A DNA stretch of 32,926 nt from Pseudomonadota bacterium (GTDB taxonomy: Bacteria; Pseudomonadota; Alphaproteobacteria; UBA1280; RI-95), in assembly GCA_016125375.1 (NCBI GenBank), contig WGLU01000003.1, forward strand, positions 100,954 to 133,879, read 5' to 3'. The notes under the pieces are model-generated. The model ran no database searches. It was not told where the DNA came from and saw only the letters and a list, made by a program, of their open reading frames with translations. Position 1 is the stretch's first letter, and each line of letters begins with the position of its first letter. Positions 11,459-24,625 of the stretch are shown here, piece after piece. The position numbers and the translations under genes are program-made.

Positions 11459-13087
11459 CTAGTCCTTTGGTTGCGACCGGTAACGGTTCACAATCGGGTA
11501 GCGGAAGTCTTTGCCGAAGGCCACGTCCGTCACCTTGACACCGGGGGCGGACTGGCGGCGCTTGTACTCGGCACCGCGCAGCAGGCGGATGACACGGTCC
11601 ACCACGGCGGCATCAACCCCCGCGGCTACGATGTCAACACGGCCCTTGCGTTGCTCGATGAGCATGCGCAGCACCTTGTCCAGTACAGCGTACGGCGGCA
11701 GGCTGTCCTCGTCCTTCTGGCCGGGGCGCAGCTCGGCGCTGGGCGGCTTGTCCAGCACGTTCTGCGGAATCACCACAGAGCGGCTGTTACGCCACTTGCA
11801 CAGCTCGTACACGCTGGTCTTGTAGATGTCCTTGATGGGGTTGTAGCCGCCGTTCATGTCGCCATAAAGGGTGGCGTAGCCGACCGACATCTCGGACTTG
11901 TTGCCGGTGGTCAGCACCATGTGGCCGTACTTGTTGGAGTAGGCCATCAGCAGCATGCCGCGGATACGTGCCTGAATGTTCTCCTCGGTCAGGCCCGAGG
12001 TGGTCAGGTCGAAGTCCGGCGACACCATCTTGGTGTAGGCCTCCATCGCGGGCGCAATGGCAATGGTGCGGGTGTGGATACCCAGCGCCTCGGCCAGCTT
12101 GTGCGCATCGCTCAGGGAGTGGTCGGAGCTGAACGGCGATGGCATCAGGATGCCTTCCACGCGGTCGGCACCCAGCGCATCCACGGCAATCGCCGCTACG
12201 ATGGACGAGTCGATACCGCCGGACAGCCCGATGAGCACGCCGGGGAAGCCATTCTTATTGACGTAGTCACGGGTACCCGTGACCAGCGCCAGGTAGATGT
12301 CTTCCCAGTGGCCGGGCTGCGGCTGGTTGATGCCGGCGTCAAAGGCGTAGCCTTTGGCCGCTTTGGTCAGAACGGCCTTGAAGGCAGCATCCGTCCACGG
12401 CTTTTGCAGGTGAACGATGTTGCCGCCGGGGTTCATGGCGAAGGACCGCCCGTCGAACACCAGCTCGTCCTGACCGCCCCATTGGTTGACGTACAGGATG
12501 GGCAGGCCGCATTCATTCACGCGGTCACGCACCACATCCTCGCGCGTGCGGGGCTTGTTGGTGACGTAGGGCGACGCGTTGGGAGAAACGATGACTTCCG
12601 CGCCCGCAGCCTTGAGCGCTGCGCACACCCGAGGGAACCACAGGTCCTCGCAGATGGCGATGCCCACGGCAATGCCGTTGAGCGGCACGACGGTTACGTC
12701 GTTGGCGCTTTGGAAGTAGCGCTTCTCGTCGAACACGCCGTAGTTGGGCAGTTCGGTCTTGAGGGCAACATCCGTAATGCTGCCACTGCGGATGAGGGCA
12801 GCGCCGTTGTACAGCTTGCCGTTCTTGATCCAGGGTGAGCCAATGAGCACGGCCGTATGGCCGCGCACGCTGGCCGCCAGTTCGTGAACGGCAGCCATGC
12901 AGGCGTCCACAAAGTCGGCCTTGAGGAGCAGGTCTTCCGGCGGGTAGCCGCAGATGAAGAGTTCGGGCAGGACCAGCAGGTCGGCATTCTGGCTTTCGGC
13001 ACGGGCGAGTTCCTCGCGCGCTATGGCCAGATTGCCCTGAAGGTCCCCCATCACGGGGTTACGCTGAGCGGCCCAGATGGTCAACAT
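11459..13087 (-). CDS. nadE: Glutamine-dependent NAD+ synthetase
   Basis: The 542-residue cytoplasmic enzyme amidates deamido-NAD+ to NAD+ with ATP and glutamine-derived ammonia. The N-terminal nitrilase-type glutaminase domain (about 1-250) has a complete Glu-Lys-Cys triad: E42 in LPELF, K110 in LKTELPNYG and C146 in ICEDLW. The C-terminal synthetase domain has the PP-loop SGGIDSS at 289-295, then MPSPFSS and TTGNKSEMSVGYATLYGDM. Length and architecture match the alphaproteobacterial form. It is the last gene of a five-gene operon, starting 15 bases after the TPP-decarboxylase beta subunit, with its ribosome site (AAGGGA) in that gap. A direct functional tie to the decarboxylase is not evident. 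Confidence 0.97.
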   Translation of the reverse strand: MLTIWAAQRNPVMGDLQGNLAIAREELARAESQNADLLVLPELFICGYPPEDLLLKADFVDACMAAVHELAASVRGHTAVLIGSPWIKNGKLYNGAALIRSGSITDVALKTELPNYGVFDEKRYFQSANDVTVVPLNGIAVGIAICEDLWFPRVCAALKAAGAEVIVSPNASPYVTNKPRTREDVVRDRVNECGLPILYVNQWGGQDELVFDGRSFAMNPGGNIVHLQKPWTDAAFKAVLTKAAKGYAFDAGINQPQPGHWEDIYLALVTGTRDYVNKNGFPGVLIGLSGGIDSSIVAAIAVDALGADRVEGILMPSPFSSDHSLSDAHKLAEALGIHTRTIAIAPAMEAYTKMVSPDFDLTTSGLTEENIQARIRGMLLMAYSNKYGHMVLTTGNKSEMSVGYATLYGDMNGGYNPIKDIYKTSVYELCKWRNSRSVVIPQNVLDKPPSAELRPGQKDEDSLPPYAVLDKVLRMLIEQRKGRVDIVAAGVDAAVVDRVIRLLRGAEYKRRQSAPGVKVTDVAFGKDFRYPIVNRYRSQPKD

Positions 13088-13102
13088 GGTTGTATCCCTT
13101 CT

Positions 13103-13657
13103 TTAGTTCTGGGAGAGGTAGTCTCTAAAACGGGCATGAATATGCAGCGGCTGCAAGGGGAAGGAAGGTGCCTTGGCGGTACTCTTTTCCACCTGTGCAT
13201 GCAGCAGGGTAAGTCCATTGTCGGCAGAGAACACCAAATTGGTGCCCAAGTCAATCTGTTGATAATGGGTAAACCCTTTAAAGCCCGCACTCAGTTGGGC
13301 GTAGTCGATGGCGGAAGACGGTGACGGCACCTTGCCAGTCAGGTCGTAAACGCCATTGTCCATTACGGCCAAAGTCAGGTTCTTAGGCGCCATATAGCTG
13401 ATGGTTGCCAGCGCGTTCAGGTTCATGGCCAGCGCGCCGTCACCGCAGATGGCAAGCACGGGCTTGTTCGGCTGGGCCAGCGCCACACCCAGTGCGACCG
13501 AAGGTGCCATACCCATCGGACCCGAAAGGTACAGATGGCTCGGGTGATCGCCCGTGCTGTACAGCCATTGGGTCTGGGAGCCGATTTCGGAAACAACCAA
13601 TGCGCCGCTCGCATGGGCGGCTTCGGCCAGATGGCGGATAATATCAACCTGTTGCAT
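13103..13657 (-). CDS. TPP-dependent 2-oxo acid decarboxylase, beta subunit (ComE/Ppd-like)
   Basis: This 184-residue protein is a stand-alone TPP pyrophosphate-binding domain. It shows SGPMGMAPSVALGVALAQP, then the TPP/Mg2+ motif beginning GDGALAMNLNALATI (GDG at 72-74) and closing with MDNGVY near 99-104. This is the pattern of the sulfopyruvate decarboxylase beta subunit (ComE) and the C-terminal half of phosphonopyruvate decarboxylase. The start at 13657 has AGGAG seven bases upstream. It overlaps the 3' end of ispDF by 14 bases. Its partner, the alpha half, is the gene before ispDF, so the two subunits of one enzyme are separated by an unrelated gene. The substrate is unknown; sulfopyruvate, phosphonopyruvate or another 3-substituted pyruvate are candidates. 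Confidence 0.86.
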   Translation of the reverse strand: MQQVDIIRHLAEAAHASGALVVSEIGSQTQWLYSTGDHPSHLYLSGPMGMAPSVALGVALAQPNKPVLAICGDGALAMNLNALATISYMAPKNLTLAVMDNGVYDLTGKVPSPSSAIDYAQLSAGFKGFTHYQQIDLGTNLVFSADNGLTLLHAQVEKSTAKAPSFPLQPLHIHARFRDYLSQN

Positions 13658-14834
13658 GGGTCTGCTCCTGTTGTTGGGCGGCTTGTCGGGGACGGATAAT
13701 GCTGGCGGTGGCGTGTGCGGCAATGCCCTCGCCGCGGCCGGTAAAGCCCAGACCTTCCGTTGTTGTGGCCTTTATATTAACCTCATCCGGGCTGATGCCC
13801 AAGACGGCAGCAGTGCGGGTGCGCATAACCTCGCGATGGGGGCCGATTTTGGGGGCCTGACAGATAAGGGTGACATCAACGTGGGTAATATCCCCACCCT
13901 GTGCGCGGACAAGAGATGCTGCATGGCGCAGGAACAGGGCCGAGTCCGCCCCCCTCCATTTGGCCTCGCTGGGTGGGAAGTGCTGGCCGATATCCCCGCC
14001 GCCGATGCAGCCGAGCAGAGCGTCGGTCAGGGCGTGCCAGGCCACGTCGGCATCGGAATGGCCGTCAAGGCCGTGGGTGTGGGGTATGGTAACCCCACAC
14101 AGCACGAGAGGACGGTCTTCGACAAGTCGGTGCACGTCGTAACCGCTGGCGCTGATGGACAGGGGGGGCTGGGTGTTCTCTGTGTCTTGCGGGTGGGTGA
14201 TTTTAATATTGGTAGCACAGCCTTCAACTACGTGGACGGCAAGATCCGCCTGTTGGGCGACAGCCGTATCATCCCGCAGGTTTCGCCCTTTGGCAGCGTG
14301 ATGGGCATGGAGGATATCGGTAAAAATAAATCCTTGCGGCGTTTGCAGGCGGGCGGTAGGTCCAGCCACTGGCCCGGCCAACAGACCATCCGCAACGCGG
14401 GCAAGGGCGTCAACGCTGGTAAGGGCGGGCACCACTGCCGTCGCGCCAGCTTGCAGGGCATCCAACACGCGGGTGATAAGCTGCGGGCTTGTGTGCGGGC
14501 GCGCACCGTCGTGAATCAGAACATGGCCGGGATTCAGGCTGTCGGCAGCCATGGCCAGCAGGCCGTGATAGACCGATGATTGGCGGCTGTCGCCCCCGTG
14601 CACAAAACGCACGTTGAGGCCTTTCAGTGCGGCGTGGGCCAGTGCCTCATCATCCGGGTGGATGACAACGTAAACGGTGCCTACCTGTGGGTGGGCGGCA
14701 AAGGTGTCCACGGTTTTGCGCAGAACGGGTCTGCCCCCCAGCAGGGCGTATTGCTTAGGCAGGGCACCGCCAAAACGGGTGCCGCGGCCAGCGGCAACAA
14801 TAAGGGCAGCCGTGTTACTGGACGGTGTGTGCAT
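13644..14834 (-). CDS. ispDF: Bifunctional IspD/IspF of the MEP isoprenoid pathway
   Basis: The 396-residue fusion catalyses two non-consecutive MEP-pathway steps: CTP-dependent formation of CDP-methylerythritol (IspD) and cyclisation to MEcPP (IspF). The IspD part (about 1-225) has LIVAAGRGTRFGGALPKQY with the CTP-binding loop, VHGGDSRQSSVYHGL and LIHDGARP. The IspF part (about 226-385) has SGYDVHRL with metal ligands D233 and H235, then HSDADVAWHALTDALLGCIG and KATTTEGLGFTGRGEGIA. The fusion is common in alphaproteobacteria. The gene overlaps the preceding TPP-alpha gene by 20 bases and the following TPP-beta gene by 14, with a weak ribosome site of its own, so its translation is probably coupled to the upstream gene. 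Confidence 0.97.
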   Translation of the reverse strand: MHTPSSNTAALIVAAGRGTRFGGALPKQYALLGGRPVLRKTVDTFAAHPQVGTVYVVIHPDDEALAHAALKGLNVRFVHGGDSRQSSVYHGLLAMAADSLNPGHVLIHDGARPHTSPQLITRVLDALQAGATAVVPALTSVDALARVADGLLAGPVAGPTARLQTPQGFIFTDILHAHHAAKGRNLRDDTAVAQQADLAVHVVEGCATNIKITHPQDTENTQPPLSISASGYDVHRLVEDRPLVLCGVTIPHTHGLDGHSDADVAWHALTDALLGCIGGGDIGQHFPPSEAKWRGADSALFLRHAASLVRAQGGDITHVDVTLICQAPKIGPHREVMRTRTAAVLGISPDEVNIKATTTEGLGFTGRGEGIAAHATASIIRPRQAAQQQEQTHATG

Positions 14835-15330
14835 TGGGCGGATAATCCAGCAGCAGAACGGCAGGCTCCTGCGCGGTTTCTGCCCGCTCCATCAGACGTT
14901 TGATGAGGTCCGGCTCGTCCTTGTAGGTGTAATAGCTGGTGGTCAGCAGGTTCATGGCACCCAGAATGCCGTCCATATAGCGGATCTTGGGAATGTCGTA
15001 GCTGTTCTTGTCGAACAGATTGCCGCGGTTGGCGACCAGCAGCACGAACGGCGTGCGGTAGTTCTGGCACAGGGTAGAGAAGCAACCCAGGCTGTTGAGC
15101 AGACCCACGTTCTGGGTCAGCATCAGGGCGCGTTTGCCGGCCATGGCAAAACCGCTGGCAACGGCAAGGGCTTCCTCTTCCCGCGCGGCAGGGACGTAGG
15201 TGATATCTGCAGCATTGCCCAGTTGTTCAATCAGCGGTGCCAGCCAGCCGTCGGGCACACCCACAGCGTGGGTAATGCCCGCAGCGCGGACCTGTGCGAC
15301 AAACTCTTCCTGAAAGCTCTTACGCGGCAT
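14815..15330 (-). CDS. TPP-dependent 2-oxo acid decarboxylase, alpha subunit (ComD/Ppd-like)
   Basis: This 171-residue protein is a stand-alone TPP pyrimidine-binding domain. It shows THAVGVPDGWLAPLIEQL, PAAREEEALAVASGFAMAGK with the Glu cluster at 51-53 that would activate the cofactor, and LMLTQNVGLLNSLG. The last two segments closely follow the ComD/phosphonopyruvate decarboxylase pattern (REEE then MQNSGLGN). Its length is that of a separate alpha subunit, not of a full-length Ppd. The start has GGAGG 12 bases upstream, within the end of the aminotransferase gene, which it overlaps by 11 bases. It needs a beta subunit, and the only candidate in view is the gene after ispDF. The product would be an aldehyde such as sulfoacetaldehyde or phosphonoacetaldehyde. 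Confidence 0.85.
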   Translation of the reverse strand: MPRKSFQEEFVAQVRAAGITHAVGVPDGWLAPLIEQLGNAADITYVPAAREEEALAVASGFAMAGKRALMLTQNVGLLNSLGCFSTLCQNYRTPFVLLVANRGNLFDKNSYDIPKIRYMDGILGAMNLLTTSYYTYKDEPDLIKRLMERAETAQEPAVLLLDYPPNAHTVQ

Positions 15331-16534
15331 GGCTGTTTTCAGCCTCCACAGCTTTGAAAAAATCTACAAAGCGCTTCAGGCCTTCATCGAGCTGGTCATC
15401 CTTGCAGGCATAGCTGATGCGCACGCCGTTGCCGTCACCAAAGGCGCTGCCCGGAACGAGGGCGAGGTCTTTTTCTTCCAGCAGCAGGGTGCACAGGCTG
15501 ATGTCGTCGGTGATTTTCTTGCCCTTGTAGGTTTTGCCGTAAAAGGCTGAAACATCCGGGAAAGCATAAAAGGCGCCGGCCGGTTTGGGGCATTTGATAG
15601 CAGGCACTTCGGCCAGTGCCTTCATCACCTTGTCACGCTTGGCCTGGAACACCGGCATCATGGCGTCCGAAAAATCCTGCGGGCCGCCAAAGGCAGCGGC
15701 AGCAGCGGCCATGGACACGTTGTTGATGTTGGTCACCTGCGCGCTGGAAAGGGTCAGCAGGGCCTTAATCATCTCTTCCGGTGCGGCAACCATGCCCACG
15801 CGCCAGCCCGGCATGCCATAGTTTTTAGAGATGGATTGCACAATCACCGTACGGTCGCGCAGTTTGGGGTTGGTGTGCAGCAGGTGGTGGAACTTCTCAC
15901 CATCGAACACCATGCGGTCGTAAATATCGTCGGAGATGATGATGATATTGTGTTTTTCCAGCTCATCGCCCAGGGCTTTGATTTCCTCGCGGCTGTAGAC
16001 CATGCCGGTGGGGTTGCTGGGGTTGTTGAAGATAATCGCTTTGGTCTTTTTGGTGACGGCAGCGGCAATCTGCTTTGGCTTGAGCTTGTAGTTCTGGCTC
16101 GCCGGGCAGTTCATGAACACAGGCTCGCCGCCCAGCAGCTCGACCATGTCCGGGTAGGATGTCCAGTAAGGGGAGGGAATAAGCACCTCGTCGCCCTCGT
16201 CCAGAATGGCCATCAGAATATTGAACAGGGCGTGTTTGCCCCCAACAGCAGCGGCAACTTCGCTCGGCTTGTAAGTCAGCTTGTTTTCGTGCATGCGGGC
16301 AATGAAAGCATTGACCAGTTCCTCGCTGCCGCGGCCCGGCAGGTAGGCGCCACTGTCACCGTCCACAGCCTTGTGGGCAGCGTCATAGACGTGCTTGGCA
16401 GGCAGGAAGTTGGGAACGCCGATGGAGAAACTGATAATCTTGCGGCCCTGTTTTTGCAGATCACGTACTTTGTCCGATACCTGTACCACGGCGCTGGGCT
16501 TGGCGGTGGCCATACGTTTTGCGAGCTTCATCAT
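15320..16534 (-). CDS. PLP-dependent class I/II aminotransferase (aspartate aminotransferase-like)
   Basis: The 404-residue cytoplasmic enzyme is a fold-type I aminotransferase of the Igamma aspartate aminotransferase group. Key elements are GRGSEELVNAF, the PSPYWTSYPDM substrate loop, NNPSNPTG near 170-177, SDDIYD near 201-206, the PLP lysine K237 in SISKNYGMPGWRVG and the C-terminal RISYA arginine that binds the substrate carboxylate. The ATG at 16534 has AGGA eight bases upstream; a GTG at 16537 and an ATG at 16531 are alternatives. It leads the operon and overlaps the TPP-alpha gene, so it may supply the 2-oxo acid for decarboxylation, for example by deaminating L-cysteate or aspartate-like substrates. 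That link is inference; general aspartate transamination is the simplest reading. Confidence 0.93.
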   Translation of the reverse strand: MMKLAKRMATAKPSAVVQVSDKVRDLQKQGRKIISFSIGVPNFLPAKHVYDAAHKAVDGDSGAYLPGRGSEELVNAFIARMHENKLTYKPSEVAAAVGGKHALFNILMAILDEGDEVLIPSPYWTSYPDMVELLGGEPVFMNCPASQNYKLKPKQIAAAVTKKTKAIIFNNPSNPTGMVYSREEIKALGDELEKHNIIIISDDIYDRMVFDGEKFHHLLHTNPKLRDRTVIVQSISKNYGMPGWRVGMVAAPEEMIKALLTLSSAQVTNINNVSMAAAAAAFGGPQDFSDAMMPVFQAKRDKVMKALAEVPAIKCPKPAGAFYAFPDVSAFYGKTYKGKKITDDISLCTLLLEEKDLALVPGSAFGDGNGVRISYACKDDQLDEGLKRFVDFFKAVEAENSHAA

Positions 16535-16622
16535 CACAGGTATCCTTTCTGAAAATCATTGGCGGAAAACACCGTAGAGCCTACTCCTTTCCCGTTCCCA
16601 AGTCCACACGGTTCAACAACAG

Positions 16623-16689: not shown

Positions 16690-17394
16690 ATGTCGAACAT
16701 CCGCGATGCCATCCGTTCCGTGATGGTGCCCATCCACCCCGACGGCTGGAAGTTTATCGTTATTTTCTTCCTCGCCGCGATCGTGTTGGACCGTATCTAC
16801 ACACCGCTGGGGATACTGGGGCTTATCCTGACCGCATGGTGTGCGTATTTCTTCCGGGATCCCAAGCGCTTTACGCCGACTCGTACAGGCCTGGTCATCA
16901 GTCCTGCCGACGGTATGGTGCAAGCCATTACCGAGCGTACACCCCCGGCTGAACTGGGTCTGAAAGAGAAAATGACCTGTGTGTCCGTTTTCATGAACGT
17001 ATTTGATGTGCACGTGAACCGCGTGCCGACTGACGCGGTGGTGGAGAGTATCGTCTACCGTCCGGGCTTGTTCCTGAATGCCGATCTGGACAAGGCGAGC
17101 GAGGATAACGAGCGCATGAGCATTCACATGGTCCTGCCTGACGGGCGCGACATGGTGATGGTACAGGTTGCAGGGCTTGTTGCCCGCCGTATCCTGTGCA
17201 AGCTCTATGAGGGACAAAAGGTGCAGGCTGGTGAAAAGTTCGGTCTTATCCGTTTTGGCAGCCGCGTGGATGTTTACCTGCCTAAGGGTGTTAACCCGCA
17301 GGTCGTGCTGGGGCAGCGCATGATTGCGGGTGAGACCATCATTGCCGATCTGGCCGATAGCAAAACACCGGCGATGACTGGCGAGGCCCGCTAA
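16690..17394 (+). CDS. psd: Phosphatidylserine decarboxylase proenzyme (short type)
   Basis: The 234-residue inner-membrane enzyme decarboxylates phosphatidylserine to phosphatidylethanolamine. It has an N-terminal membrane segment (about 20-47), then YFFRDPKR and SPADG, and [12 protein letters not shown], all typical of Psd. The proenzyme cleaves itself at G190-S191 in the RFGSR motif, which makes the pyruvoyl group. The product would be a 190-residue beta and a 44-residue alpha chain. Length and motif belong to the short type found in alphaproteobacteria. The start at 16690 has AAGGA. It overlaps pssA by one base (TAATG), so the two steps of phosphatidylethanolamine synthesis are co-expressed. 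Confidence 0.96.
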
Positions 17395-18218
17395 TGGCGA
17401 CCCAGACAGCCGAAAAATCCCGTCGCCGCCTGCCACGGGCAACCGGTCTGCCCATGCGGCAGATGATTCCCAACATTGTCACGTTGCTGGCATTGTGCTC
17501 GGGTCTGACGGCAATCCGTTTTGGTCTGGAAGGGCGGTTTGAACATGCCATTCTGGCGATTTTTCTGGCTGCTGTTTTTGACGGTCTGGACGGACGCATC
17601 GCACGCCTGTTGCGTGCCACCAGCAAAATCGGTGCGGAGCTGGATTCCCTGTCCGACCTGATTAGCTTTGGCGTTGCGCCTGCGGTGCTGATGTACCTGT
17701 GGACCATGCATGGTGTGGGCGGCCCCGGTTGGGCCATCTGCCTGATGTTTGTTGTCTGTTCCGCCCTGCGTCTGGCCCGTTTTAACGTCGGTCTGGGGCA
17801 GGATGCCGAGCTGCCGGCCTTTGCGTTCAAGTTCTTCATCGGCGTGCCGACGCCTATGGGTGCCATGCTGGTGCTGATTCCGATGATGATGGGCTTCTCG
17901 TTCGAGGAGCCGTGGTTCAGCATGCCTGCTGTCACAGGGGCATTTATGATTGTGGTTGGCCTGCTGATGGTCAGCACACTGCCCACCTTCTCGTTCAAGC
18001 GCCTGCGCCTGCCCTACTGGACGGTATTGCCGCTGATGTTGTTTGTGGGCCTGTTTGCCGGGTTTATTATTTCCGAGCCGTGGCTCATGCTTTCCGGCCT
18101 GGGGGGGCTATACCTGTGCACCATCCCTTACAGTGTGCGTGCCTATGCACGTCTTAAGGCTGAGGCTGCCGCCCTGCGCGAGGGTGCTGGCGAACCTGCC
18201 CTGAAAGTGGCCAAATAA
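17394..18218 (+). CDS. pssA: CDP-diacylglycerol-serine O-phosphatidyltransferase
   Basis: The 274-residue integral membrane enzyme makes phosphatidylserine from CDP-diacylglycerol and serine, feeding Psd encoded just upstream. The CDP-alcohol phosphatidyltransferase motif is complete: DGLDGRIARLL, then SKIGAELDSLSDLISFG, with the catalytic aspartates spaced as in the family. About seven or eight hydrophobic helices follow the basic N-terminus. The ATG overlaps the psd stop, so the order psd-pssA is translationally coupled although it is the reverse of the pathway order. A terminator follows directly. Confidence 0.95.
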   Translation: MATQTAEKSRRRLPRATGLPMRQMIPNIVTLLALCSGLTAIRFGLEGRFEHAILAIFLAAVFDGLDGRIARLLRATSKIGAELDSLSDLISFGVAPAVLMYLWTMHGVGGPGWAICLMFVVCSALRLARFNVGLGQDAELPAFAFKFFIGVPTPMGAMLVLIPMMMGFSFEEPWFSMPAVTGAFMIVVGLLMVSTLPTFSFKRLRLPYWTVLPLMLFVGLFAGFIISEPWLMLSGLGGLYLCTIPYSVRAYARLKAEAAALREGAGEPALKVAK

Positions 18219-19420: not shown

Positions 19421-20017
19421 CTATTCTCCGGCAGAAGTGGGGGAGGAAGTATTGGGTGTATCAGGTTGTGACGATGCCATTTTGTGCAGAATATAACGGT
19501 TTACAGTAATGGCGCGGTATTGCAAGACAATCAGCAGAGCACTCGTAGCAACCAGAAGGCAGGTCAACGACGCAAGCTTATGTACATCAGCACCTTGTTG
19601 GGTGCGCAGCCAGAGGAGGTGGCTCATATAACCACTCAGCCCTAAGTAGATGGGCCAGGATAGAACAGCTGCACTTACCATCGCCTTGTCCTGGGTTTTT
19701 CTACGCTTAATGTCGGAGGCGATTATGCCTTCAGCCGTCTGCTCCGCAGGCGTATGGAACACTGGGCCCAAGTTAACATACCACCTGTAGCAGAAATAAC
19801 CTGCTAACAGGGTGCCGGAAATAACAAAGGGGGCAAATCTGGGCGCATCACTGGTGGCCGTTCCAACGAGGGCACCAATCAGAACCATGAGAATTAGAAA
19901 TAAGCCGTATTTCTTAGCCTGTTTTGACTCTTTCTCAGCACGTTCACGGCGCATCTTGTTCAGATGCGCCGTGAGCTCCTCAGGGCTGAGCTTCTTTGGT
20001 TTGAAATTACTTTCCAA
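19421..20017 (-). CDS. Four-helix membrane protein with a charged N-terminus, unknown function
   Basis: The roughly 198-residue protein begins with a charged helix (SPEELTAHLNKMRRERAEKES). Two hydrophobic helices (about 38-80), a polar loop with HTPAEQTAEGIIASDIKRRK, and two further helices (about 115-165) follow; the tail is Ser/Thr/Pro-rich. I do not recognise a family. No ATG fits the start. TTG at 20017 has GGGG seven bases upstream, TTG at 20023 is too close to it, and the ATG at 19954 would cut off the charged helix. With TTG at 20017 it overlaps the aldehyde dehydrogenase gene by 11 bases, so its translation is probably coupled to that gene. Confidence 0.7.
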   Translation of the reverse strand: MESNFKPKKLSPEELTAHLNKMRRERAEKESKQAKKYGLFLILMVLIGALVGTATSDAPRFAPFVISGTLLAGYFCYRWYVNLGPVFHTPAEQTAEGIIASDIKRRKTQDKAMVSAAVLSWPIYLGLSGYMSHLLWLRTQQGADVHKLASLTCLLVATSALLIVLQYRAITVNRYILHKMASSQPDTPNTSSPTSAGE

Positions 20018-21542
20018 AATCAATCCCCAAATCCGCGGGTGGTGTGGTGCTGGTGTTCATCACAATGCTCTGGCGGCGCATGTACTGCTTCCAGCTGTCA
20101 GAGCCCTTTTCGCTGCCGAGGCCGGACATTTTGGTGCCGCCGAATGCCAGTGCGACTTCCAGCCCGCCGGTGTTGTCGTTTACCGATACCATGCCGCTGT
20201 CGCTGCCGGTTGCGCCTGTGAAACGGGCAACTTCGCGCAGGTCGTTGCTGAAAATACCGGACGAGAGGCCTTGCTCCACGCCGTTGCATTTTTCCAATGC
20301 GTCCTCGAACGTGCTGTAGGGCTGTACATACAGCAACGGGCCAAAGGTTTCGTCCTGTGGCTGGGGTGTATCTGCGTCCAGAATCGCCATGTAGGGGGCC
20401 ACGTAACAGCCCTCGGTCGGGATATGGGTGTTGGGGCGGAACAGCGTCACGCCTTTCTGGCCCTTGAGTTGCTCGATTTTGGCATCGAACATGGCTTTGG
20501 CTTTCGCGTCTACCAGTGGCGGCAGGGTGAGGCCGTCGCTGCCGAAATCGGCCACGCTGAGGCTGTTGTAGGCCACTTTCAGGCGGCGGACCACCTCGTC
20601 AAAACGGCTGGTGTGCACCAGCAGACGTCGCAGCGCGGTGCAACGCTGGCCACCGTTGGACAAGGCGGCAATAAAGGCCGTGCGCAGGCTAACTTCCATG
20701 TCGGCCTTGTCAGAGAAGATGGCTGCGGCGTTACCGCCCAGCTCCAGAATGCACGTGGCCAGACGGGCACCCGCGGCCTTGCCGACGGCCTGACCCATAG
20801 CCGTGCTGCCGGTGGCGCTGATGAGCGGCAGGCGGGTGTCGTTCACCAGCGGGATGGCGACGTCTTCGTTGGTACCCATCACAAGGCTGAATACGCCTTC
20901 CGGCACTTCCGGGTGTTTGGCCAGCACATCGGCGATGACCTTGGCAACAGCGGCACTGAACAATGGCGTCTGCGGTGCGGGTTTCCAGATGACGCTGTTC
21001 CCGCACAAAATGGCCACGCAGGCATTCCATGCCCACAGGGAGATAGGGAAGTTGAAGGCGGTAATGACCAGAATTGCGCCTAGAGGGTGCCATTTTTCAA
21101 TCAGTTGTACATCGGCACGGGCGCTGGGGGCGTCCAGCCCGCCAATGGTACGGGCAAGGCCTGCGGCATAGGTGGCGGTGATGGCACTGTCTTCGATTTC
21201 GCCCTTCGCTTCACGCAGGGGCTTACCCATTTCAAGGCACATGACCTGCGCCAAATCATCCTTGCGAGCGCGCAGTTCGGCTGCGAGTGATATCAGAACA
21301 GCCGCACGTGCGGGTACGGGCACGGTGCGCCATGTTTTAAAACCTTCCAGCGCCGTTTTGACAACCTGTTCGCGCTGGGTGCCGTCGGCCTGTGCAAAAC
21401 TGGCGACAGCCTTGCCGTCGATAGGGCTGATGGAGGTGTCCTGCGGCCCTTTGCCTGTGATGAGCGTACGCCCAGTGCTGGCGGCAGGGATGGATTTGTC
21501 CAGCCCGAAGAGGGGAAGTACTTTTTTGCATTCGGGTGTCAT
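20007..21542 (-). CDS. Aldehyde dehydrogenase, ALDH7 (antiquitin/AASADH-like) family
   Basis: The 511-residue NAD(P)-dependent enzyme oxidises an aldehyde to a carboxylate. ITAFNFPISLWAWN and the cofactor-binding VIWKPAPQTPL are typical of ALDH7. The general base E267 lies in ILELGGNAA and the catalytic C301 in GGQRCTALRR. The C-terminus GGTKMSGLGSEKGSDSWKQY also follows ALDH7, where the family oxidises alpha-aminoadipate semialdehyde (piperideine-6-carboxylate) in lysine breakdown or betaine aldehydes. The substrate cannot be fixed here. The ATG at 21542 has GGAGG seven bases upstream; the longer open frame upstream has the Arg-rich look of a shadow frame. Two small membrane-protein genes follow in the same unit. 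Confidence 0.93.
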   Translation of the reverse strand: MTPECKKVLPLFGLDKSIPAASTGRTLITGKGPQDTSISPIDGKAVASFAQADGTQREQVVKTALEGFKTWRTVPVPARAAVLISLAAELRARKDDLAQVMCLEMGKPLREAKGEIEDSAITATYAAGLARTIGGLDAPSARADVQLIEKWHPLGAILVITAFNFPISLWAWNACVAILCGNSVIWKPAPQTPLFSAAVAKVIADVLAKHPEVPEGVFSLVMGTNEDVAIPLVNDTRLPLISATGSTAMGQAVGKAAGARLATCILELGGNAAAIFSDKADMEVSLRTAFIAALSNGGQRCTALRRLLVHTSRFDEVVRRLKVAYNSLSVADFGSDGLTLPPLVDAKAKAMFDAKIEQLKGQKGVTLFRPNTHIPTEGCYVAPYMAILDADTPQPQDETFGPLLYVQPYSTFEDALEKCNGVEQGLSSGIFSNDLREVARFTGATGSDSGMVSVNDNTGGLEVALAFGGTKMSGLGSEKGSDSWKQYMRRQSIVMNTSTTPPADLGIDFGK

Positions 21543-21603
21543 GGCTGTGCCTCCGTCAAATTGTTCGGCGTTCATCATAGGCCAGTTTGGACGCAAAAGA
21601 AAA

Positions 21604-21625
21604 GCCCCCGACCGAAGTCGGGGGC
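21604..21625 (-). terminator. Terminator of the 21647 gene
   Basis: A perfect 9-bp G+C stem (GCCCCCGAC with GTCGGGGGC, loop CGAA) is followed on the minus strand by TTTTCTTTT. It separates this gene from the aldehyde dehydrogenase unit. Confidence 0.9.
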
Positions 21626-21646
21626 AATCGCTTGAAGGAGGTTGGC

Positions 21647-21991
21647 TTAGCCGGCCGAACCCGGGGTGACGGGCGCGGCGGGGGTGGCCGGCGCCGTCGG
21701 GGCGCTGCCGCCGAACAGGCCGGTCACGCTGGCCTTGGCGCCGGTGATGGCGCTGGCGAGGTCGCCGGTGATGATGCCATGATCGATGAGGTAGCCGGAG
21801 CCGAACCACGCGGCGGCGCCCAGGGCGCCGACCACGACGACGGTCTTGACCAGGCCGCCGAAGAACGAGCCGCCCTTCTTGGCGGGTGCGTCGGTCTTGG
21901 TGGTGGGGGTGGTGTCGGTCTTGGTGGTGTCGACGGGCTTGGTGTCGGTGGTGTTCTCGGGCTTCGGGGCCTCGGGGGTGCCGTTCGTCAT
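21647..21991 (-). CDS. Thr/Pro/Ala-rich single-helix protein, unknown function
   Basis: The product has 114 residues from the ATG at 21991, which has AGGAG with nine-base spacing. The N-terminal 45 residues are low-complexity (Thr, Lys, Asp, Pro). One transmembrane helix follows (LVKTVVVVGALGAAAWFGSG), then GYLIDHGIITGD and an Ala/Pro-rich tail. An in-frame ATG at 22081, also with a ribosome site (AAGGAG, 11 bases), would add a strongly basic 30-residue leader (RKPNRHKARRDRRRAAAV). Either or both starts may be used. The gene is much richer in G+C than acn beside it and has its own terminator. A membrane-anchored structural or stress role is possible but nothing identifies it. Confidence 0.65.
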   Translation of the reverse strand: MTNGTPEAPKPENTTDTKPVDTTKTDTTPTTKTDAPAKKGGSFFGGLVKTVVVVGALGAAAWFGSGYLIDHGIITGDLASAITGAKASVTGLFGGSAPTAPATPAAPVTPGSAG

Positions 21992-22271: not shown

Positions 22272-22317
22272 GGCCACGATTTTGAGAAGAAAAACACCGT
22301 CTCAAGGAGAGTCAGCA

Positions 22318-24582
22318 ATGGGCCAAATGACCATCGAAAGCACCCCCCAATTCGTCGAAAATGTTTATAAAAAAATGACCGAGCGTCTGGCCGTTGTCCG
22401 CAACCGCCTCAACCGCCCGCTCACGCTGGCCGAAAAAATCATCTACGGCCACCTGAACGACCCCAAAACTGCCGACCTTACCCCCGGTACCAGCTATCTG
22501 GAGCTGCGTCCCGACCGTGTGGCGTTTCAGGATGCGACCGCCCAGATGGCTATCCTCCAGTTCATGCTGGCAAATAAAGACTATCCAGCCGTGCCGGTAA
22601 CCGTGCACTGCGACCACCTGATCCGTGCCCATACCGGTGCCAATGACGACCTGAAAGTCGCCAATACCGAAAACAAGGAAGTATACGACTTTCTGGCCTC
22701 GTCCTCGCAGAAATACGGCTTCGGCTTCTGGAAGCCGGGCTCGGGCATTATCCACCAGGTTGTGCTGGAGCAGTATGCCTTCCCGGGTCTGATGATGCTG
22801 GGTACCGACTCCCACACCCCGAACGCGGGTGGTCTGGGTGCCTTTGCCTCCGGTGTTGGCGGTGCCGACGCTGTGGACGTGATGGTTGACCTGCCGTGGG
22901 AAGTGCTGCACCCGCATATCGTGGGCGTTAAGCTGACCGGCGAGATGAAGGGCTGGACCGCACCGAAGGACGTTATCCTGAAACTGCTGGACATCCTGAC
23001 CGTTGAAGGCGGTACCAACCGCGTTATCGAATACTTTGGCCCCGGCTGCGCCTCTATCAGCTGTACCGGTAAAGCCACCATCTGCAACATGGGTGCCGAG
23101 CTGGGTGCAACCACCTCGCTGTTCCCCCATGACGAGCGTATGGACACCTACCTCAAATCCACAGGCCGCGCCGAGCTGGTTAAGCTGGCTGGCAAATATG
23201 CCGACCTGCTGGTTGCAGATAAAGGGTCTGAGAAACACTACCAGACCGTTATCGAAATCGACCTGTCTACGCTGGAGCCGCATGTTGTTGGCCCGCACTC
23301 GCCGGATTTGGCTGCCCCTGTGTCCAAAATGGGCGCGCACCTGAAAAAAGGCGGCTGGCCGACCAACCTGACCAGCGCCCTGATTGGTTCGTGTACCAAC
23401 TCCTCCTACGAGGATATGGGCCGCATTGCCGAGATGGCTGACCAAGCCATCGCTGCTGGCGCCAAAATCAAGATCCCGCTGCTGGTAACCCCGGGTTCCG
23501 AGCAGGTGCGCGCGACGATTGCGCGCGACGGCATTATGCAGAAACTGGAAAAACTGGGTGCGGTTGTGCTGGCAAATGCCTGCGGTCCGTGCATCGGCCA
23601 GTGGAAGCGTGACGACATTAAGGCAGGCGAGAGCAACTCCATCATCTCGTCCTACAACCGGAACTTCCCCAAGCGTAACGATGGCAACGCGGCAACCTGC
23701 TCGTTTATCGGCAGCCCGGAAACGGTTCTGGCTTACGCCTTCCACGGTCGTATCGACATTGACCCGTTCACCACGCCGATTGACCTGGGTAATGGCAAAA
23801 CCTTTACCCTGAAGGCACCGGGCAAAGTTGCCGAAGTGCCTGCCAAAGGCTACGTGCCGGATGAGGAAGGTTTCCTGCCGCCGTCCGCCAATGGTGGTAA
23901 GGTGAACGTCAGCGTGGCATCGTCTTCGGACCGTCTGCAACTGCTGACCCCGTTCGATGCTTGGAGCGGTAAGGACTACACCGGCCTGCCCGTGCTGATG
24001 AAAGCCAAAGGCAAGTGCACGACCGACCATATTTCCCCGGCTGGCCCGTGGCTGAAATATCGTGGTCACCTGCAAAACATCTCCAACAACATGTTCAGCG
24101 GTGCTGTGAACGCCTTTACCGGCGAACCCGGTCGCGGCAAAGACCTGTTGAGCGGTGATGTGAAGCCTTACAACGAAGTGGCCATCCACTACAAAGGCGA
24201 AGGCCTGGGTTGGGTTGCCGTGGGCGACAGCAACTACGGTGAAGGCAGCTCCCGCGAGCATGCGGCGATGAGCCCGCGTTTCCTCGGGGCCCGTGCGGTG
24301 ATTACCCGCAGCTTTGCCCGTATCCACGAAACCAACCTGAAAAAACAGGGCATCCTGCCGCTGACCTTTACCAATCCGGCCGATTACGACCTGATTGAAG
24401 AGGAAGACCACATTGACATTAAGGGCCTGACCCAGCTTACACCGGGCAAGCCTGTCACAGCGGTTGTGCATCATAAAGATGGCAGCGAGGTGGAAATCAA
24501 GCTCAAGCACACCCTGAACGCTGAACAAATCCAGTGGTTCAAGGACGGCTCGGCGCTGAACACCTTGCGCAAGCACAAGTAA
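22318..24582 (+). CDS. acn: Aconitate hydratase, mitochondrial type
   Basis: The 754-residue [4Fe-4S] enzyme interconverts citrate and isocitrate in the TCA cycle. It matches the mitochondrial aconitase (ACO2) branch throughout: RLNRPLTLAEKIIYGHLNDP, RPDRVAFQDATAQMAILQF, GFWKPGSGIIHQ, GTDSHTPNAGGLG and SISCTGKATICNMGAE. Cluster ligands are C359 in GSCTNSS and C422 and C425 in ACGPCIG. The swivel domain has KGKCTTDHISPAGPWLK and YGEGSSREHAA. The length also fits this branch, whereas most alphaproteobacterial AcnA proteins are about 890-900 residues. The ATG at 22318 has AAGGAG eight bases upstream; the open frame further upstream is intergenic. It is a single-gene unit with its own terminator. 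Confidence 0.97.
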   Translation: MGQMTIESTPQFVENVYKKMTERLAVVRNRLNRPLTLAEKIIYGHLNDPKTADLTPGTSYLELRPDRVAFQDATAQMAILQFMLANKDYPAVPVTVHCDHLIRAHTGANDDLKVANTENKEVYDFLASSSQKYGFGFWKPGSGIIHQVVLEQYAFPGLMMLGTDSHTPNAGGLGAFASGVGGADAVDVMVDLPWEVLHPHIVGVKLTGEMKGWTAPKDVILKLLDILTVEGGTNRVIEYFGPGCASISCTGKATICNMGAELGATTSLFPHDERMDTYLKSTGRAELVKLAGKYADLLVADKGSEKHYQTVIEIDLSTLEPHVVGPHSPDLAAPVSKMGAHLKKGGWPTNLTSALIGSCTNSSYEDMGRIAEMADQAIAAGAKIKIPLLVTPGSEQVRATIARDGIMQKLEKLGAVVLANACGPCIGQWKRDDIKAGESNSIISSYNRNFPKRNDGNAATCSFIGSPETVLAYAFHGRIDIDPFTTPIDLGNGKTFTLKAPGKVAEVPAKGYVPDEEGFLPPSANGGKVNVSVASSSDRLQLLTPFDAWSGKDYTGLPVLMKAKGKCTTDHISPAGPWLKYRGHLQNISNNMFSGAVNAFTGEPGRGKDLLSGDVKPYNEVAIHYKGEGLGWVAVGDSNYGEGSSREHAAMSPRFLGARAVITRSFARIHETNLKKQGILPLTFTNPADYDLIEEEDHIDIKGLTQLTPGKPVTAVVHHKDGSEVEIKLKHTLNAEQIQWFKDGSALNTLRKHK

Positions 24583-24598
24583 GGGGCAACCCGAACAG

Positions 24599-24625
24599 AA
24601 AAACCGCGGCAATGCCGCGGTTTTT
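24599..24625. terminator. Bidirectional terminator between acn and the receiver gene
   Basis: A 12-bp stem (AAAAACCGCGGC with GCCGCGGTTTTT, three-base loop) with A and T runs on both sides lies 16 bases after the acn stop and 18 bases from the convergent gene. Confidence 0.92.

Follow-up and report, generated by a model that had tools for sequence, protein, structure and literature searches.

We analysed an operon within a window of 32,926 nucleotides (the whole stretch of DNA examined, positions 100,954 to 133,879 of contig WGLU01000003.1, assembly GCA_016125375.1) from a Pseudomonadota bacterium of the alphaproteobacterial lineage UBA1280; RI-95, in which two small genes, here called alpha and beta, are predicted to encode the halves of a thiamine diphosphate (ThDP)-dependent decarboxylase. 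Read along the minus strand, the operon begins with a class I-beta, aspartate-type aminotransferase of 405 amino acids (15320-16537, with its ATG at 16534; Pfam Aminotran_1_2, 3.5e-68). It continues with alpha, the PYR or N-terminal TPP half of 171 amino acids (14815-15330; TPP_enzyme_N, 2.5e-10); ispDF, encoding a bifunctional isoprenoid enzyme of the methylerythritol phosphate (MEP) pathway (13644-14834; YgbB, 3e-63; IspD, 3.6e-49); beta, the PP or C-terminal TPP half with its GDG...DN motif (13103-13657; TPP_enzyme_C, 2.5e-17); and nadE, encoding a glutamine-hydrolysing NAD+ synthase (11459-13087; NAD_synthase, 5.2e-78, plus a CN_hydrolase (nitrilase) domain; NF010588, 761.9 bits against a cut-off of 479). 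Aminotransferase and alpha overlap by 11 bases, alpha and ispDF by 20, and ispDF and beta by 14, while 15 bases separate beta from nadE. The start of beta is taken as the ATG at 13657, the mechanically called open reading frame (ORF) beginning further out at a TTG, and none of the five genes contains an internal stop. The gene order and junctions, recomputed here, are identical to those described in an earlier note on this DNA, and Pfam domain searches bear out the identities it gave to the aminotransferase, the TPP halves, IspDF and NadE.

That note had read alpha and beta as ComD- and ComE-like halves of one enzyme, a reading that agrees with both the curated models and the solved relatives. 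The best models are those of sulfopyruvate decarboxylase alpha (TIGR03845; 89 bits for alpha, cut-off 147.95) and beta (TIGR03846; 132 bits for beta, cut-off 221.5), although both scores reach only about 60% of the curated cut-offs. Phosphonopyruvate decarboxylase (TIGR03297) scored 61 and 96 bits for the two halves, again under its cut-off of 312.5. An AlphaFold2 model of alpha (predicted local distance difference test 88.8) found its best folds in the chains of the AzcB/AzcC entry 9u8q, followed by RhiE (9iz4), and beta has RhiF as a relative at 8.2e-17. Alignments place AREEE in the catalytic-glutamate region of alpha and the CGDG...DN ThDP/Mg motif in beta, and the PYR and PP domains are carried by separate proteins whose genes are adjacent in relatives, as expected of a two-chain ThDP decarboxylase. 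These comparisons support the prediction that the two genes encode complementary chains of a single ComDE/RhiEF-like two-chain ThDP decarboxylase.

We compared 11 alpha-beta pairs, from the window's genome, from G003 and G005 of a sister family in the same order, and from eight genomes of another order. The 11 alphas, which share the motif VPDG[WY], form one clade (support 100/100), and their betas also group together (97/92). RhiE groups with full-length phosphonopyruvate decarboxylases (99/96) and not with the window's alpha, its exact position being uncertain because of a long branch; the beta tree gave RhiF no firm position. Within the clade, VPDG[WY] replaces the VPCS, VPCK or VPDS of other enzymes, NxYD stands in alpha where phosphonopyruvate decarboxylases carry EPQH, and GSQxxWL and SGPMG stand in beta in place of their GKxxREL and GSMG. 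The R[E/D]L (beta) and EPQH (alpha) of phosphonopyruvate decarboxylases are thus absent, with W and Y instead. By analogy with the general ThDP-decarboxylase fold, these motif positions would line the substrate pocket. On sequence grounds, the VPDG[WY] pair makes up a distinct, uncharacterised clade within an enzyme type already known, and phosphonopyruvate decarboxylases fall outside it. The comparison with ComDE and phosphonopyruvate decarboxylases that the earlier note had proposed therefore upholds the ComDE-like type and sets the pair in a clade of its own, with different pocket-region motifs and scores below the ComD, ComE and phosphonopyruvate decarboxylase cut-offs.

Two-chain ThDP decarboxylases have been called rare (PMC12746152), and each of the described systems resembles the window's pair in part. 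In ComDE, too, the PYR and PP domains are encoded by two small genes lying next to each other; it provides the best-scoring curated models, and in Methanosarcina its substrate is supplied by an aspartate aminotransferase (PMC12713407); the window's pair differs in falling under the cut-offs, in its pocket-region motifs and in that no coenzyme M pathway genes were recognised. RhiEF (PDB 9iz3/9iz4), which decarboxylates phosphonopyruvate (PMC12141560), is a two-chain ThDP enzyme of the same fold (template-modelling score about 0.8, 25% identity), but RhiE sides with the full-length enzymes and pepM was not found in the window's genome. The AzcB/AzcC alpha-imino acid decarboxylase (PDB 9u8q-s) also has two chains and is the best structural match of alpha, but at 23-24% identity it belongs to another clade and, according to the PDB title, acts on an imino acid in Streptomyces. 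LumK/LumL, likened here by description and not by sequence, is of the same two-chain type and active as a co-expressed 1:1 complex, but its substrate is a quinoxaline carboxylate of riboflavin catabolism (PMC12746152).

The window's family was represented in the comparative searches by one genome, its own. In both sister-family genomes (G003, locus L031; G005, locus L030) the aminotransferase, alpha, beta and nadE follow one another opposite a divergent psd, with alpha adjoining beta and without ispDF, at 53-73% protein identity to the window. The conservation of this row and of psd in two further genomes, at that level of identity, argues that the arrangement is not due to chance. The G003 operon holds another short, lineage-specific insert, an acetyltransferase (GNAT)-like ORF, named by reading, between the aminotransferase and alpha (L005:2005-2424, minus strand). 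The divergent pair reported earlier is present in the window at 16690-18218 on the plus strand: psd (phosphatidylserine decarboxylase, 16690-17394; NF003677, 325 bits, cut-off 315), a neighbour by synteny in both sister genomes, and pssA (phosphatidylserine synthase, 17394-18218; TIGR00473, 125 bits, cut-off 107), which lies beside psd in G005 as well. In G002, another genome of the order, an ALDH7-type gene, an aminotransferase orthologue (57% identical) and nadE stand in a row; alpha is absent from it, and no remnants of alpha or beta lie between its aminotransferase and nadE. Among 142 genomes searched in the other order, alpha and beta are adjacent in eight, all of one family, and none of the eight has an aminotransferase next to the pair. 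A contig scan with alpha returned as its sole match a relative of 25% identity, and plasmid matches, among those listed, reached at most about 37%. The alpha-beta pair is a conserved unit, and its link to the aminotransferase is confined to the window's order. The order alpha-ispDF-beta occurs in one of the 11 pairs, that of the window's genome, so that the split by ispDF, which the earlier note had asked about, is found only here and is not conserved, while the core of aminotransferase, alpha, beta and nadE recurs in G003 and G005.

The product of ispDF fuses IspD and IspF domains (NF006899, 411.6 bits, just under the cut-off of 417; TIGR00151, 201 bits, over the cut-off), and the window's genome has one copy of ispF. 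Both dxr and ispDF are present in that genome (window 13644-14834; G000:C7:111311-111688), and none of the order's other five genomes yielded either gene; these relatives would have lost the MEP pathway or would obtain isoprenoids from another source. In the other order, ispDF is located away from alpha-beta in G240 and G427. As the pair is adjacent in relatives without ispDF and also where ispDF lies elsewhere, its adjacency is probably ancestral, judging from these gene orders. The ispDF gene would then have been inserted in the window's lineage, or at an earlier stage, with the relatives later losing it together with the MEP pathway. We considered ispDF as a recent foreign gene and rejected this, since its base composition and codon use (GC content 0.63, third-position GC 0.66, codon distance 0.31) all lie inside the range of the window's genes and give no sign of recent transfer. 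A functional split, for instance one coupling isoprenoid synthesis to the decarboxylase, could be read from the close packing of ispDF, with overlaps of 20 and 14 bases on its two sides, and from the presence of dxr here while the other five genomes of the order lack it. We judge it very unlikely, given that the sister genomes keep the same operon without either ispDF or dxr and that ispDF stands apart from the pair in G240 and G427. The split is probably a one-genome arrangement with no function of its own, ispDF being an unrelated MEP-pathway gene that would have come to sit between the two halves in the window's lineage.

The best NCBIfam model of the aminotransferase is aspartate transaminase PRK06107 (364.8 bits), short of the equivalog cut-off of 617. 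Its closest solved relative is the rhizobial AatA (PDB 6f77; PMC11286295), the Sinorhizobium meliloti enzyme, at 40.5% identity; unlike AatA, it falls under the curated aspartate transaminase cut-off and has GVPNF instead of GEPDF. Aspartate-type aminotransferases gave one match at 1e-30 in each of G000 (the window's genome), G002, G003 and G005; the other strong PF00155 matches in G000 are Kbl- and HisC-like, and further weak matches exist. Because it is the only aspartate-type enzyme detected per genome and adjoins nadE in G002 without alpha or beta, the aminotransferase is probably a housekeeping enzyme, and the aminotransferase and NadE genes would probably be housekeeping genes sharing a transcript.

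Several further neighbours were recorded. At 20007-21809 on the minus strand the window encodes an aldehyde dehydrogenase of the ALDH7 type, for which L-piperideine-6-carboxylate dehydrogenase is the best model (485 of 730 bits). Its 52% identical orthologue in G002 lies directly upstream of the aminotransferase orthologue. At 22312-24612, also on the minus strand, is a 766-residue ORF with no Pfam match, whose codon usage (0.53) deviates more than that of any other listed gene. In three genomes of the genus g204, a pterin-4a-carbinolamine-dehydratase-like gene, identified by reading, stands directly before alpha (L090:9787-10137, L105:8662-8964, L108:8118-8420). Of the eight genomes in the other order that carry alpha-beta, five (L090, L103, L104, L105, L108) have a 5-aminolevulinate-synthase-like gene, likewise named by reading, within about 4 kb of the pair. 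Whole-genome searches for panD and panC gave no matches in G000, G001, G003, G004 and G005, and G002 has panD and no panC; the standard route to pantothenate seems to be missing from the window's order.

Based on these observations, we favour, with somewhat better than even confidence, a two-chain ThDP decarboxylase of its own subfamily acting on an amino-acid-derived 2-oxo acid, accompanied by housekeeping aminotransferase and NadE genes and an unrelated ispDF. Alpha (PYR, AREEE) and beta (PP, GDG...DN) would assemble into one RhiEF/ComDE-like enzyme, which would remove CO2 from a 2-oxo acid arising by amino-acid deamination and release an aldehyde. The substrate class is weakly suggested by neighbouring genes, as aminotransferase and glutamate dehydrogenase both yield 2-oxo acids from amino acids; in G426 alpha is preceded, at a distance of about 24 bases and in the same orientation, by a gene of the glutamate dehydrogenase family (L103:3412-4689, minus strand). 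Since the partner gene in the window is an aspartate-type aminotransferase, oxaloacetate-like dicarboxylic 2-oxo acids would be the first guess. Some points weigh against this interpretation. The glutamate-dehydrogenase-like neighbour was seen in one genome only; two-chain relatives use acids as diverse as sulfopyruvate, phosphonopyruvate, a quinoxaline carboxylate (PMC12746152) and alpha-imino acids (9u8q title), so the family does not fix the substrate; and the aminotransferase may be uninformative in this respect, because beyond the window's order no aminotransferase adjoins the pair.

More specific substrates can be weighed against the same evidence. One candidate is an oxaloacetate alpha-decarboxylase, which would turn oxaloacetate derived from aspartate into malonic semialdehyde, to be used for making beta-alanine or oxidised to acetyl-CoA. 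In its favour, sulfopyruvate and phosphonopyruvate have their carboxylate analogue in oxaloacetate, the aminotransferase of the operon is of the aspartate type, and panD is absent in G000, G003 and G005. We nevertheless regard this candidate as unlikely, though not remotely so: panC is absent too, so that beta-alanine is not needed for pantothenate synthesis, and G001 and G004 lack panD without having alpha-beta. A role in supplying beta-alanine for pantothenate is weakened accordingly, panC being missing besides panD in the genomes that carry the pair. We would hold with equal reserve that the VPDG clade has a substrate new for the enzyme type, for example as a true oxaloacetate alpha-decarboxylase feeding malonic semialdehyde and encoded with the aminotransferase that makes its substrate. 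The bulky Trp/Tyr of the pocket region might instead suit an aromatic or branched 2-oxo acid in an Ehrlich-type route with an aldehyde dehydrogenase as sink. Such a route would accord with the gene read by eye as pterin-carbinolamine dehydratase that alpha-beta follows in g204 and with the ALDH7-type gene of the window, taken here at 20013-21377, whose orthologue directly precedes the aminotransferase in G002. This seems rather unlikely, as the pterin dehydratase is widespread and was identified by reading alone, and the ALDH7 gene occurs in G002 without alpha-beta and is unlinked in G003 and G005, observations on which we also rejected ALDH7 as an obligate partner.

The earlier note had proposed that the aminotransferase makes sulfopyruvate from L-cysteate and that alpha-beta decarboxylates it to sulfoacetaldehyde or a related aldehyde. 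The sulfopyruvate decarboxylase models are indeed the best curated ones, and in Methanosarcina ComDE and an aspartate aminotransferase of general function carry out this chemistry (PMC12713407). The shortfall in score, the remodelled motifs and the distinct clade nevertheless make this route quite unlikely. No sulfonate genes were recognised beside the pair in the 11 genomes, whose neighbourhoods were annotated in part only, and no source of sulfopyruvate (comA-C, cysteate synthase) was recognised in the window, no genome-wide search having been made for these or for xsc. Even if true, it would be no new pathway in principle, because the route from cysteate through aspartate aminotransferase to ComDE is already known in Methanosarcina (PMC12713407). 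A phosphonopyruvate decarboxylase of a phosphonate pathway, for which TIGR03297 matches both halves weakly and RhiEF offers a two-chain precedent, is largely refuted and extremely improbable: the only phosphoenolpyruvate (PEP)-mutase-family match in a genome 97.7% complete is the methylisocitrate lyase prpB, pepM was not found, RhiE falls with the full-length enzymes and not with alpha, and R[E/D]L and EPQH are absent. Neither a specific sulfo- nor a phosphono-aldehyde route is therefore supported, with scores far under the cut-offs, prpB as sole PEP-mutase relative and differing pocket-region motifs. The modified lipid head group once suggested from psd-pssA has adjacency as its sole support.

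What is new is a branch within an already known type of enzyme; no pathway is shown, and the earlier suggestion of a new one is not borne out. Each characterised two-chain ThDP decarboxylase acts on a different acid. The clade described here stands apart, its pocket-region residues are remodelled and in places it adjoins genes for amino-acid deamination, which makes it a compact target in the search for a new decarboxylation. As the split operon indicates, the genes for the two halves of such a decarboxylase need not be neighbours, and an essential gene can stand between them. If the two-chain enzyme favoured here proves to act on a common 2-oxo acid, the pair would close a gap in the metabolism of alphaproteobacteria with small genomes.

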